Assembly (NCBI GenBank): GCA_025363635.1
Contig: JANYDL010000053.1
Location: 1 to 64,000, forward strand
DNA length: 64,000 nt
From: Actinomycetes bacterium
GTDB taxonomy: Bacteria > Actinomycetota > Actinomycetes > Nanopelagicales > Nanopelagicaceae
Direction: 5' to 3'
A program made the position numbers and the translations under genes. The notes under the pieces are model-generated. The model saw only the letters and a program-made list of their open reading frames with translations. It was not told the DNA's origin and made no database searches. This document shows, piece by piece, positions 38,080 through 56,067 of the stretch. Position 1 is the first letter of the stretch. Every line of letters begins with the position of its first letter.

Positions 38080-38925
38080 GTGGAAATTCTTCAAATACCT
38101 TCATTGCGCGGACCGATCATGATAGTGGCCTTTACGGGATGGAACGATGCAGGAGAGGCCGCCACAGGTGCGGTATCGCATTTGCTTAATACATGGGTCT
38201 CAACACACATCGCATCCTGTGACCCCGAAGATTTTTATGATTTCCAAGTTAATCGTCCACAAGTATCTATCGATGGCTCCAAAATTCGACAGATCACGTG
38301 GCCCAACACTGATGTTTACGGTGTAAACGTGCCGAGTTTTCCCTTTGATCTCGTTTTGGTACGCGGTGCCGAACCTTCGATGCGTTGGAAAACTTTCACT
38401 GCACAAATTTTAGATCTTGCCGATGATCTTGAAGTATCCATGATCGTAACAGTTGGATCTTTACTGGCAGATACACCGCATACCCGTCCGATTGGCGTGA
38501 CGGGTAGTGGGTCTCATCCAGATCTTGCGAAGAAATTGGGAGTCAGCATCAGCCGGTATCAAGGACCTACGGGCATACTCGGAATCTTGCTAGATGGAGC
38601 ACAAAAGCGCAGCATCGACGCGGTTTCACTGTGGGCATCTATTCCTCACTATGCGTCGGCACCACCTTCCCCAAAAGCAACTTTGGCCTTGATCAATTCT
38701 CTTGAGGACATTCTGAATGTAAGTATCGATTTAGGAGACTTGCCAGATCATGCGCGGGCGTGGGAAATTGCTGTCGATGAGATGGCAAGTGAGGATAGTG
38801 ATGTTGCCGAGTACATAAAATCTTTGGAAGTTGCTAAGGATGAAACAGATCTACCCGAGGCTACCGGCGAATCGATTGCACGAGAATTTGAACGATATCT
38901 GCGCAGAAATAAAACCGAAGACTAG
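38080..38925 (+). CDS. PAC2-family protein
   Basis: A 281-residue protein of the PAC2 / proteasome-assembly-chaperone-like family: IMIVAFTGWNDAGEAATGAV near the start, VLVRGAEPSMRWKTFTAQIL, VTVGSLLADTPHTRP and VSLWASIPHYASAPPSPKAT. It is the counterpart of Rv2125. Members resemble archaeal and eukaryotic proteasome-binding proteins, but the actinobacterial function is unknown. It begins at GTG 38080 with AAGG 7 bases upstream, is divergent from metH, and overlaps the converging mshC by 4 bases. It is retained although no proteasome gene is visible here. Confidence 0.9.
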   Translation: MEILQIPSLRGPIMIVAFTGWNDAGEAATGAVSHLLNTWVSTHIASCDPEDFYDFQVNRPQVSIDGSKIRQITWPNTDVYGVNVPSFPFDLVLVRGAEPSMRWKTFTAQILDLADDLEVSMIVTVGSLLADTPHTRPIGVTGSGSHPDLAKKLGVSISRYQGPTGILGILLDGAQKRSIDAVSLWASIPHYASAPPSPKATLALINSLEDILNVSIDLGDLPDHARAWEIAVDEMASEDSDVAEYIKSLEVAKDETDLPEATGESIAREFERYLRRNKTED

Positions 38926-40169
38926 ATAGAGACACCCAACAATAGATCTATAGCTCTGGCAAGTTCGCCAGCAGAACCTCCGCTTGAACCGTTTTCAGTA
39001 CTTTCGCACCATTCTTCAAGCGTCAGGATTGCCGAAGGTGTATCGAGATTCTCTGCTAAGGCGTTGATTAAACCCACAATCACCAACTGCGTGGGTGCCA
39101 CCTCAGGTTTGGATAACGCGAGCCGCAATCTATTGAGCAAGGATGTTGCGTTACGCAGTTTTTCATCATTCCACATTCTGTCGCTGGAATAATGATCGGA
39201 AATAAGTGCTAAACGTATTGCCATGGGGTCATGACCCGATTTCACAAGACGAGAAAGAAATACCAAGTTACCCAAACTCTTACTCATCTTCTCGCCATCT
39301 AATCCAATCATCCCGGCATAGACATACATACGCGCATATTGCTGACCTGAAATGAGGGTTGATTCTGAAGCACCCATTTCGTGATGTGGGAAGATCAGAT
39401 CGCTTCCACCACCCTGTATGTCAATCGAATATTCCAATTCTCTATCAACCATTAGGTAATTTAGTGCGATAGCGCTGCATTCAATATGCCAACCAGGACG
39501 CCCCTCTCCAAAAGGCGATGGCCATGATGGCTCTCCTGGTCGTTTGCCTAACCACACAAGAGGATCTAATGGATCTCGCTTACCTTCGCGCAAAGGATCC
39601 CCACCGCGTTGCGCAAAAATCTCAAGCATGGATTCGAGAGAGTGATGTGACCTAGATCCAAATTGCGGATCTGTACGAACTGAAAAGTACAGGTCATTGT
39701 CCACTTTATAGACAAGACCTTTTTCGAGAAGTTGTTGGATCGCTTCGATAACCAGAGGAATGGATTCGACTGCACCTATATATTTGTAAGGAGGGATAAC
39801 GTGTAAATCGCTCATATCTCCTCTGAATAAATCAATTTGCGATTGGGCTAAATCTTTCCAATCAACTCCATCGCGATGCGCGCGTTCTAACAGCGGATCA
39901 TCTATATCCGTAATATTTTCAACGAAAAGCACTTCTTTGCCAGAGGCACGTAAATATCTATTTATGAGATCGAAAGTGAGGTAAGTGGCAGCGTGTCCTA
40001 AATGGGTTGCATCGTAGGGAGTTATGCCGCAAACATACATCCGAAAAATATTTTGATCAGGAAGTTGCTCGACGATTCCGCTTGCCGAATTGAAAAGAGA
40101 AAGCTGCGGGAAAGTAAACCGATTATCGACAGGGGGAAGGTAAACATCAGCCCAAGATTTCACGGGCAC
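38922..40169 (-). CDS. mshC: Cysteine:glucosaminyl-inositol ligase MshC
   Basis: A 415-residue cysteinyl-tRNA-synthetase-like enzyme that joins cysteine to GlcN-inositol in mycothiol synthesis. It reads MYVCGITPYDATHLGHAATY where CysS normally has Pro-Thr-Val-Tyr, a mark of MshC. Zn ligands include GWHIECSAIAL and FPHHEMGASE, and KMSKSLGN is near residue 290. The short C-terminus lacks the anticodon-binding region of full CysS. Position next to a PAC2 gene and the SCO1664-type gene matches other actinobacteria. It implies that mycothiol is the main thiol. Confidence 0.94.
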   Translation of the reverse strand: MPVKSWADVYLPPVDNRFTFPQLSLFNSASGIVEQLPDQNIFRMYVCGITPYDATHLGHAATYLTFDLINRYLRASGKEVLFVENITDIDDPLLERAHRDGVDWKDLAQSQIDLFRGDMSDLHVIPPYKYIGAVESIPLVIEAIQQLLEKGLVYKVDNDLYFSVRTDPQFGSRSHHSLESMLEIFAQRGGDPLREGKRDPLDPLVWLGKRPGEPSWPSPFGEGRPGWHIECSAIALNYLMVDRELEYSIDIQGGGSDLIFPHHEMGASESTLISGQQYARMYVYAGMIGLDGEKMSKSLGNLVFLSRLVKSGHDPMAIRLALISDHYSSDRMWNDEKLRNATSLLNRLRLALSKPEVAPTQLVIVGLINALAENLDTPSAILTLEEWCESTENGSSGGSAGELARAIDLLLGVSI

Positions 40170-40197: not shown

Positions 40198-40914
40198 TTA
40201 GAATGGGGGCCATGGTACAGAAGGCCAATCTGGATTAGGCAAGGGAAATGACCCGGTTTCCAATAGAGATTTGACTCTTCTGGACAGTTCGCGGACTTCT
40301 CCTTGTGTAAGCAAATCATCCAACTCTGAACCCAAAGAGCCATCAATGAGATTCAATAATCTACCTAATTGCTCGCGTTCTTTCGTGGAGAGTTCGACAC
40401 CAGCCCATTGCCATAGCACAGTCCGCAATTTATCGTCACTATGAAAAGTGACACCATGATCGCATCCCAATATTCGACCATCCGCAGTTGGCAAAAGATG
40501 TCCGATTTTGCGATCCGTATTGTTGATGACCGCATCAAAAAGCGCCATTTTTCTCAACTCAGAAAGATCTTGCTTGAAGAGCTCTAATAGATCGATTGAC
40601 TCATCGATATCGATCCACTCTTGGACTGCTCCTTCTCCGTAGGGGCCTTGCCGTAAAAGGGTTAACGGAACAACATCGAAATTCGCCCGAGAACTGACCA
40701 AATAAGCGGCGTATTCTCGGTGGGCTAAGGTGCCGTGAGGAAAATCCCAGAGGGGACGTTCTCCTGCAATTGGTTTATAGATGCACTTTGTACCTTCTTC
40801 ACTGTCTGCTTCGCCTTCCACAGTTACAAGCAGAGTCGCATTCGAAGCATCGACCAACCGACCCAGAATAGACATTGCTCCGTTTTTAAGCGTGTGATTA
40901 ACGTCTGTAGCCAT
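40198..40914 (-). CDS. SCO1664-family kinase-like protein
   Basis: A protein of about 238 residues from an uncharacterised actinobacterial family. It carries kinase-like motifs of the PI3/4-kinase and HipA style: KPIAGERPLWDFP near residue 45 with a candidate ATP-binding Lys, AVINNTDRKIGHLL (catalytic-loop-like Asp-Arg) and ILGCDHGVTFH (Asp-His-Gly in place of Asp-Phe-Gly). The substrate is unknown. ATG 40914 has GAGGG 4 bases upstream; the in-frame TTG 40947 and ATG 40932 would extend it. It overlaps the DUF3090 gene and so is translated with it. Confidence 0.82.
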   Translation of the reverse strand: MATDVNHTLKNGAMSILGRLVDASNATLLVTVEGEADSEEGTKCIYKPIAGERPLWDFPHGTLAHREYAAYLVSSRANFDVVPLTLLRQGPYGEGAVQEWIDIDESIDLLELFKQDLSELRKMALFDAVINNTDRKIGHLLPTADGRILGCDHGVTFHSDDKLRTVLWQWAGVELSTKEREQLGRLLNLIDGSLGSELDDLLTQGEVRELSRRVKSLLETGSFPLPNPDWPSVPWPPF

Positions 40915-41455
40915 TGGCCCTCGGGCATACATGACCACGGGGATCAAGAGCTAGACCGCAGAAAGGACATGGTGGCCGTCCCGATGCAACAAGAGCAAGA
41001 GCTCGCGAAACAAAGGTCCGAGTCTGTGATACAGAAAGAAAAACGCGAAGCACATCTAGCGTGTCATCATCATCTGAAAAAACTTCATCAGTCTCTTGAC
41101 TCTCGTCCGTCATGGCTTGCAGATCGATTTGAACCAGTTCACGATCACTAACCCATGCCAACCCAATAACGCCCACTCTAAATTCTTCCATGATCGGGGC
41201 TTCGAGCGGTTGGTCATCAAGGTTGATAGGGGTGGAGATAAGTGCTGAAGCAATTCTTGGTTCAATCTTCGTCAATTCCTTCATGAGAAGGTTAAGCCGC
41301 TCGGCCATTGCCAGAACTTGAGCCTTCTCTAGAAGCACCGAAACGACACGGAGACCAGTTCGCGCTTGAAGAAAAAATGATCGTTCACCAGGCTCACCTA
41401 CGGTACCTGCAACGAATCGTTCTACTGGATCGAACTCGTGTATTACTCGAGCCAT
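40898..41455 (-). CDS. DUF3090 protein with C-terminal zinc ribbon
   Basis: A 185-residue protein of a conserved actinobacterial family of unknown role. It starts MARVIHEFDPVERFVAGTVG and includes GERSFFLQARTGLRVVSVLL. The C-terminus has CPFCGLALDPRGHVCPRANG, with Cys pairs placed as in a zinc ribbon. An acidic stretch (EVFSDDDDTLDVL) lies mid-protein. It abuts the histidine phosphatase start and overlaps the SCO1664-type gene by 17 bases. The three-gene set next to mshC is also found in Streptomyces. Confidence 0.87.
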   Translation of the reverse strand: MARVIHEFDPVERFVAGTVGEPGERSFFLQARTGLRVVSVLLEKAQVLAMAERLNLLMKELTKIEPRIASALISTPINLDDQPLEAPIMEEFRVGVIGLAWVSDRELVQIDLQAMTDESQETDEVFSDDDDTLDVLRVFLSVSQTRTFVSRALALVASGRPPCPFCGLALDPRGHVCPRANGYRR

Positions 41456-42160
41456 CTACGATTTTGCCTTTCTTGATTTAGGGCCGGCCCCGCCACCAAT
41501 GAGCGCTCCTCTAGTTCTGTGGCCGACGGTGAAAAGGTCGATTACCGAGCGAGAGTCATTCATCAAAATAAGTCTAGGAGTAGTTGAAGAATAATCAAGA
41601 ATGGAGATGGAGGCGGGATCGACGACTATCCGCTGGAAATGATCGAGGTCCATCGACAAACTCGAGGCAATAATCGATTTAATCACATCACCATGACTCA
41701 CCAGAATGATGTTGCCTTTCCCTCGAGAAGTAAGTGCGCTTTCCACAGATCTCATGGCTCTCTTCTGCATGGCGATCATTGATTCTCCTTGTGGAAATGT
41801 CACTGTGGAAGGACGTGATTGCACCTTCTTCCATAGCGGTTCTTTTCGTAGCGACTTTAGAGAGCGACCAGTCCATGTCCCGTAATCGGCTTCGACGAGT
41901 CCTTCGTCGATGTGAAGTTTCAATCGAGAATTAAGGCCTTGAACCATGCAGCGATTCATCCATGGCGCAATCGTCTCTGAACATCTTTCCAACGGACTTG
42001 ATCTGAGAGCCTTGATAGTTGAATTTCCAAGTCGCTTGCTCAAGGACCGCGATTGAATTCTTCCCAATTGACTAAGGTGCACTCCTTGACTTCTTCCTGA
42101 CAAAATATTGCTGGCATTCGCGGTGGAATGCGCGTGCCGAACGAGAAGTATGAGTGTCAA
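41456..42160 (-). CDS. Histidine phosphatase (MSMEG_4193 family)
   Basis: A 234-residue member of the phosphoglycerate-mutase-like histidine phosphatases. The phospho-acceptor motif is ILLVRHAHSTANASNILSGR near residue 4-23 (Arg-His), with Arg in ALRSSPLERCSETI, acid Glu in VEADYGTWTG and the second His in ILVSHGDVIKSIIA. The C-terminus ends in a Gly/Lys-rich tail. It is followed immediately by the DUF3090 gene with no gap. The substrate is unknown; the family name comes from a Mycobacterium smegmatis member. Confidence 0.9.
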   Translation of the reverse strand: MTLILLVRHAHSTANASNILSGRSQGVHLSQLGRIQSRSLSKRLGNSTIKALRSSPLERCSETIAPWMNRCMVQGLNSRLKLHIDEGLVEADYGTWTGRSLKSLRKEPLWKKVQSRPSTVTFPQGESMIAMQKRAMRSVESALTSRGKGNIILVSHGDVIKSIIASSLSMDLDHFQRIVVDPASISILDYSSTTPRLILMNDSRSVIDLFTVGHRTRGALIGGGAGPKSRKAKS

Positions 42161-55933: not shown

Positions 55934-56062
55934 CGTCTATTCCTTTATCCAGACTGTAACTGTCGGTCTTGGAATTACACCAAGTCAACCGTCCAAGTGA
56001 AAACTTGGTCGGGTCGCGGACTTTACCGCCGGTTCGGAATTACACCGACCCCCGGAACAACG
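55934..56062 (-). promoter_or_regulatory. FMN riboswitch (RFN element) controlling ribM
   Basis: On the minus strand the two hallmark GGTGTAATTCC loops occur (about 56047-56037 and 55985-55975), together with ACCGGCGGTAAAGTCCGCGA, then GACCGACAGTT and AGTCTGGATAAAGGAATAG at the 3' side. The 5' CGTTGTTCC and 3' GGAATAGACG ends can pair as stem P1. It starts 5 bases after the rpe stop. FMN binding is expected to shut off ribM. Confidence 0.95.
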
Positions 56063-56067
56063 TGTCG

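Follow-up and report, generated by a model that had tools for sequence, protein, structure and literature searches.

The three proteins considered here belong to catalogued families, namely a histidine phosphatase (P, NCBIfam TIGR03848), a DUF3090 protein (D, TIGR03847) and a SCO1664-family protein (K, TIGR03843), and the TIGRFAM notes for these families present them as a three-gene system that includes a likely kinase. SCO1664 is listed as an actinomycete signature protein, and a published review connects it with mycothiol. In PMC4255298, SCO1664 is said to be "invariably closely linked" to mycothiol genes, and mycothiol to be absent outside actinomycetes, Acidimicrobium excepted. Rv2135c of M. 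tuberculosis has been purified and is described in PMC3866925 as a tetrameric acid phosphatase with a pH optimum of 5.8. It did not act as a phosphoglycerate mutase or on glucose-6-phosphate or ADP, and its activity on the remaining small phosphates was weak (Km 8-14 mM). Literature searches turned up no study addressing the function of K or D.

Layout and inheritance of the trio

The window, that is, the whole stretch of 64,000 nucleotides analysed, comes from a genome of 1.85 Mb (98% complete) with a single K. A profile search of the window proteins placed P, D and K, encoded on the minus strand from 42160 to 40198, above the curated NCBIfam cut-offs. The features were the following:

41456..42160, minus strand: P, histidine phosphatase branch 1 of the MSMEG_4193/Rv2135c family (234 aa; TIGR03848, 217 bits)
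40898..41455, minus strand: D, DUF3090 protein with a predicted PUR/Whirly-like two-repeat domain and a C-terminal zinc ribbon (185 aa; PF11290, TIGR03847)
40925..40969, minus strand: putative zinc-ribbon ligands C163, C166, H175 and C177 of D, from conservation in alignments
40198..40914, minus strand: K, SCO1664-family protein, predicted PI4KII/FAM20/HipA-like kinase (238 aa from ATG; TIGR03843, 291.5 bits; structure model)
40774..40776, minus strand: K47 codon of K, predicted ATP lysine in a YKP motif (68/68)
40498..40515, minus strand: predicted catalytic loop of K, D134-R-K-x-G-H139 (D, R, K and H each 68/68), aligned to NTDRGNDN of PI4KII
40453..40461, minus strand: D152-H-G154 of K, predicted metal-binding motif equivalent to DFG (D in 68/68; middle position H in 59 and N in the other 9; G in 67/68)
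40201..40215, minus strand: invariant C-terminal pentapeptide of K, PWPPF (PWP-x-hydrophobic in 146/146 Actinomycetota kinases)
38922..40169, minus strand: mshC, mycothiol cysteine ligase, a neighbour outside the module (TIGR03447, 547 bits, cut-off 485.1)

The stop codon of P (41458-41456) is followed directly by the ATG of D at 41455, with a gap of zero. The longest open reading frame of K, whose stop lies at 40198, starts from a TTG at 40947 and overlaps D by 50 nt; we took the ATG at 40914 as its start, which leaves an overlap of 17 nt and agrees with relatives. mshC starts 28 nt downstream of K on the same strand, giving the order P-D-K-mshC. A sequence-only reading of this DNA had described three packed minus-strand genes, the first two abutting and the last two overlapping, with the motifs NTDRKIGH and DHG in the kinase-like protein, and all of these features were recovered. 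At 55934-56063, also on the minus strand, the window carries an FMN riboswitch (97.4 bits).

The joint inheritance of the genes was surveyed by searching separately for each family in 296 phylum genomes, each with a completeness of 90% or more. K was present in 121 and D in 122 of them, and among the 120 genomes with both, P, D and K were collinear in 117, which excludes a chance arrangement; the three exceptions have K or P on a different contig or past a contig end. Two genomes contained D only, on contigs ending at D, and one contained K only, with a match at E 9e-4. Independent inheritance, named beforehand as an outcome that would tell against the trio, was thus not the pattern in Actinomycetota, where the three genes travel as a unit. 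The window trio is an ordinary member of the catalogued set and differs from it in nothing defining. K is a near-single-copy chromosomal gene kept across families. The trio occurred in 30 of the 35 sampled genomes of the window's class, and the remaining five, all from one family, possessed neither the trio nor MshC over the cut-off. Saccharopolyspora and Umezawaea (L120, L135, L141) have D-K without an adjacent P, which is encoded elsewhere (320-331 bits), and one genome (G008) holds a second P-K copy without D; the existence of such P-K pairs points to an accessory role for D. Among 14 control genomes, K was found only in C. glutamicum and D in none. A locus titled 'Bifidobacterium breve' MAG (L082) has counterparts of P, D, K, mshC and PAC2 that are 50-62% identical to those of the window, and is probably a mislabelled aquatic actinobacterium.

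No constant fourth gene was found outside the class in the 36 of 43 loci with callable genes (seven were missed). Neighbours varied by lineage, including EtfAB, a uracil-DNA-glycosylase-like protein, PhoR/Pst, fumarase, PPX and UppS, these names having been read from the sequences by hand and not by family search.

We also searched 201 genomes of the phylum to which three loci titled 'Chloroflexi' belong (hereafter, second phylum). K was present in 111, D in 129 and both in 104; seven genomes had K without D, one of these being a sub-threshold protein of another type, and 25 had D without K, while P exceeded its cut-off in only 29, adjoining D in 27. The module is therefore not obligate in this phylum: the pairing of K and D is frequent but not constant, P accompanies them less often, and the trio is only loosely linked. 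One group without detectable D (L173, L174, L175, L176) has kinases ending in FEWW, with DNA in place of DHG, the kinase of L175 reading in two frames; L177 encodes a different PI4KII-like protein (NTDRHEDN, DNG) under the TIGR03843 cut-off.

Families, folds and active sites of the three proteins

P matched His_Phos_1 (E 6.9e-42) and exceeded the TIGR03848 cut-off of 203.85 bits. The residues that define branch 1 histidine phosphatases were all present, namely the RH motif (as RHA, R8-H9-A10), a second arginine (R59), a glutamate (E90) and a second histidine (H156), and they were conserved in the aligned members (R8/H9 66/68, with gaps in the other two rows; R59 68/68; E90 67/68; H156 68/68). 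Its earlier identification as a phosphatase is thus borne out by the catalytic residues and by a biochemically tested relative, Rv2135c (PMC3866925).

D exceeded the cut-offs of both DUF3090 (PF11290; 184.5 against 27 bits) and TIGR03847 (207.5 against 117.25 bits). Its C-terminus reads C163-x2-C166-x8-H175-x-C177; C163, C166 and C177 were invariant and H175 was conserved to at least 90% in an alignment of 32 rows, and all four were invariant in one of 62 rows. These four Cys/His putative ligands agree with the C-terminal CxxC zinc ribbon proposed from the sequence, and the CxxC..HxC motif of DUF3090 has been remarked upon before (PMC9425974). The model of D (pLDDT 85.6), in which the ribbon is poorly modelled, resembled PURA in one structural comparison (Z 10.3; VIA, 113 residues, 3.3 A), whereas the Foldseek matches to PUR-alpha and Whirly were weak (best E 0.043, range 0.04-0.5) and not significant, so that a PUR-like fold is only a lead. 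Neither alignment of D contained an invariant Ser, Thr or Tyr; D thus presents no obvious conserved substrate, and we rejected it as a conserved phospho-acceptor of K. In the second phylum, D-only genomes in which no K was found (L248-L252, L256, L257) retain the zinc ribbon, suggesting that D may also work without K.

Published data touch D in a few places. Insertions in the BCG orthologue of Rv2134c reduced survival under rifampicin at 8 ng/ml (log2FC -1.42; PMC11329110), and from gene order this orthologue should correspond to D. MSMEG_4192c, which by its numbering would also be D, was over-represented following dibucaine exposure (log2FC 1.49, P 0.045; PMC10127668) and appears in the ClpC1 interactome list of PMC10433963. 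Two further papers list DUF3090 (PMC13118837) and name Rv2133c (PMC11754781). Together, the mutant data are no more than a hint at envelope stress.

K scored 291.5 bits with TIGR03843 (cut-off 172.4). The window protein fell below the Pfam gathering scores of PI3_PI4_kinase (PF00454; 15.1 vs. 27.1 bits) and HipA_C (14.1 vs. 30.5 bits), and single-sequence searches of the PDB gave noise; PF00454 was nevertheless matched by 26 of 29 family members at E<=0.01, and a profile of these 29 members retrieved PI4KII-beta (E 4e-6), PI4KII-alpha (E 2e-4) and FAM20A (E 1e-3) from PDB sequences. An AlphaFold model, computed from an alignment of 70 sequences from the window and the named loci, had a pLDDT of 92.4 and a pTM of 0.91. 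Structure comparison placed PI4KII-beta first (Z 18.4; 222 residues, 3.7 A), followed by FAM20 (Z 15.0), CtkA (Z 13.7) and HipA (Z 10.8), and Foldseek agreed on the fold (E 1.6e-7). On the family profile and this structure model rests the kinase reading of K, which by the model almost certainly has a kinase fold.

Residue roles in K were transferred from known kinases by alignment to PI4KII, and we take K47 to be the ATP lysine, E67 the alpha-C glutamate, and D134 and D152 the catalytic and metal-binding aspartates. All four, along with the lysine two positions after D134, were invariant in 68/68 aligned members, and the catalytic loop was retained in 10/10 second-phylum loci. The sequence-only reading had staked its kinase-like protein on the presence of an ATP site, and both the modelled fold and the invariant residues of that site uphold it. 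At the position of the PI4KII metal-binding asparagine, five residues past the catalytic aspartate, all 68 members carry histidine (H139) where relatives of solved structure have asparagine, so the activity of K could differ from ATP phosphotransfer. K looks like a kinase but is not assignable as a PI4-kinase.

The C-terminus of K is far more constant than those of its partners, the named loci containing seven distinct C-terminal pentapeptides for K, 25 for D and 49 for P. PWPxx ended 164 of 164 kinases with a readable stop, four scanned loci (L153-L156) having held no kinase signature. After subtraction of five duplicate fetches and 13 second-phylum loci, 146 distinct Actinomycetota proteins remained (145 genomes plus one paralogue), all with an exact C-terminal PWP-x-hydrophobic. 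The tail had a pLDDT <50 in the monomer model and was variable in the second phylum. There, in a test of 74 loci with D adjacency and tail flags assigned by hand, PWPxx was found in 27/38 kinases with an adjacent D, 12/31 with D elsewhere and 1/5 without D; the test omits G348 (tail running off its contig), G355 (split frame, no D) and G364 (protein of another type). The trend towards docking on D counts as weak, since it is clade-bound and 11 of the 38 kinases with an adjacent D carry no PWPxx motif. The PWP-x-hydrophobic tail is probably a docking element.

A proposed phosphorylation module, its alternatives and the suggested mshC link

Our best reading, to which we give an even chance, is that P, D and K form one reversible phosphorylation module. 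K, with its PI4-kinase II/FAM20/HipA fold, would bind ATP and metal through K47, E67, D134, H139 and D152 and transfer the gamma-phosphate onto some cellular substrate; P would be the matched histidine phosphatase, stripping this phosphate through a phospho-histidine intermediate. D, with a possible PUR-like domain and its putative zinc ribbon, may be an accessory protein, either an adaptor guiding K to its target or a sensor of metal or redox state, and the C-terminal tail, which is loose in the modelled K monomer, is probably the element by which K docks.

It is also conceivable, with appreciably lower probability, that the system serves small-molecule metabolism, K phosphorylating a sugar, an inositol or the head group of a lipid, with P as a dedicated phosphatase or phosphomutase acting on the product. 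The nearest folds do include lipid and sugar kinases (PI4KII, and Hydra Fam20 with sugar), TIGR03848 bears the NCBIfam name 'putative phosphomutase', and Rv2135c is active on small phosphates; however, the same study gives this enzyme no mutase, glucose-6-phosphate or ADP activity and millimolar Km values on the rest (PMC3866925), and no constant metabolic neighbour accompanies the trio outside the class in loci with callable genes.

We consider it improbable that K is a nucleotide-binding enzyme of non-classical type, either an AMP-transferase or a regulatory pseudokinase. The DxKxxH loop, with H139 in place of asparagine throughout, would fit such an enzyme, but the other catalytic residues are all invariant, which is atypical of a pseudokinase, and FAM20 kinases depart from asparagine at this position too.

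It is very unlikely that the trio has an accessory role in the making or use of mycothiol. In favour of this, PMC4255298 draws the link, and the distance from K to MshC was at most 3 kb in 28 of the 30 genomes that encode MshC over the cut-off (30/296, every one a trio genome from the window's class). In the other two MshC lay elsewhere, and co-occurrence was limited to 30 of the 120 trio genomes. The 90 trio genomes without MshC over the cut-off were split by eye into 44 with only CysS-level matches and 46 with intermediate MshC-like proteins, the latter being outside the window's class, with scores above CysS level but short of the cut-off (445.8 bits at best). True MshC may be among these, and their genes did not adjoin the trio in the cases examined. 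Mycothiol is confined to actinomycetes and Acidimicrobium according to PMC4255298. The trio is found in the second phylum as well. The 90 genomes contradict the word "invariably" as it stands in PMC4255298, and a special tie of the trio to mshC or mycothiol is not supported: mshC is a class-level neighbour of the trio and not a part of the module. A PAC2-family gene (38080-38925) is convergent with mshC, with an overlap of 4 nt, and was seen in 47/80 named loci, some contigs stopping short of it.

Least probable of all is that K is a HipA-like toxin flanked by antidote genes: HipA is inside its fold reach, but K is a near-single-copy gene beside which stand DUF3090, the phosphatase and mshC and no helix-turn-helix (HipB-type) antitoxin, and a PADLOC search gave no match at E<=0.01.

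Returning to the proposed phosphorylation module, a protein or a target bound by D is a likelier substrate than a mycothiol intermediate. A bolder and rather unlikely version would make the module a phospho-switch older than mycothiol, common to Actinomycetota and the second phylum, in which K is a minimal PI4KII-type protein kinase with a DxKxxH loop whose invariant, free PWP-x-hydrophobic tail docks on DUF3090; the latter, a PUR-like zinc-ribbon protein in this view, would choose what is phosphorylated (a nucleic-acid complex or a ribonucleoprotein, perhaps), and the phosphatase would reset it. If the switch is real, it stands apart from the well-studied Ser/Thr kinases and is present in most sampled genomes of the window's class (30/35). 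The SCO1664 problem is thereby recast as one of enzymology, the parts being a PI4KII-type kinase with an unusual loop, a phosphatase whose counterpart in a relative has been purified, and a protein with a putative zinc site.

Comparison with known systems

PI4K2A and PI4K2B share with K the fold across 220-222 residues, the ATP lysine, the catalytic aspartate and the DxG motif; they differ from it in sequence (16-18% identity), in length, K being about half that of the solved chains, and in the loop, which is DRxxxN in them and DRKxxH in K. FAM20 kinases, which are secreted and eukaryotic, resemble K in fold (Z 13-15) and in the NxDR and D[NH]G motifs, and they likewise depart from asparagine in the catalytic loop. 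HipA and CtkA are, like the predicted kinase K, bacterial and of the same fold group, whereas K lacks a HipB partner and sits in a conserved operon with a phosphatase. The model of D has two beta-sheet-plus-helix repeats that may correspond to those of PUR-alpha and Whirly, at only 9% identity and with a putative zinc ribbon in addition. Rv2135c, also a histidine phosphatase, shares the RHA variant of P and was taken as its orthologue by family and motif (PMC3866925). As to the catalogued families TIGR03843, TIGR03847 and TIGR03848, the window proteins exceed all three cut-offs, and their gene order is that of 117 of the 120 genomes.
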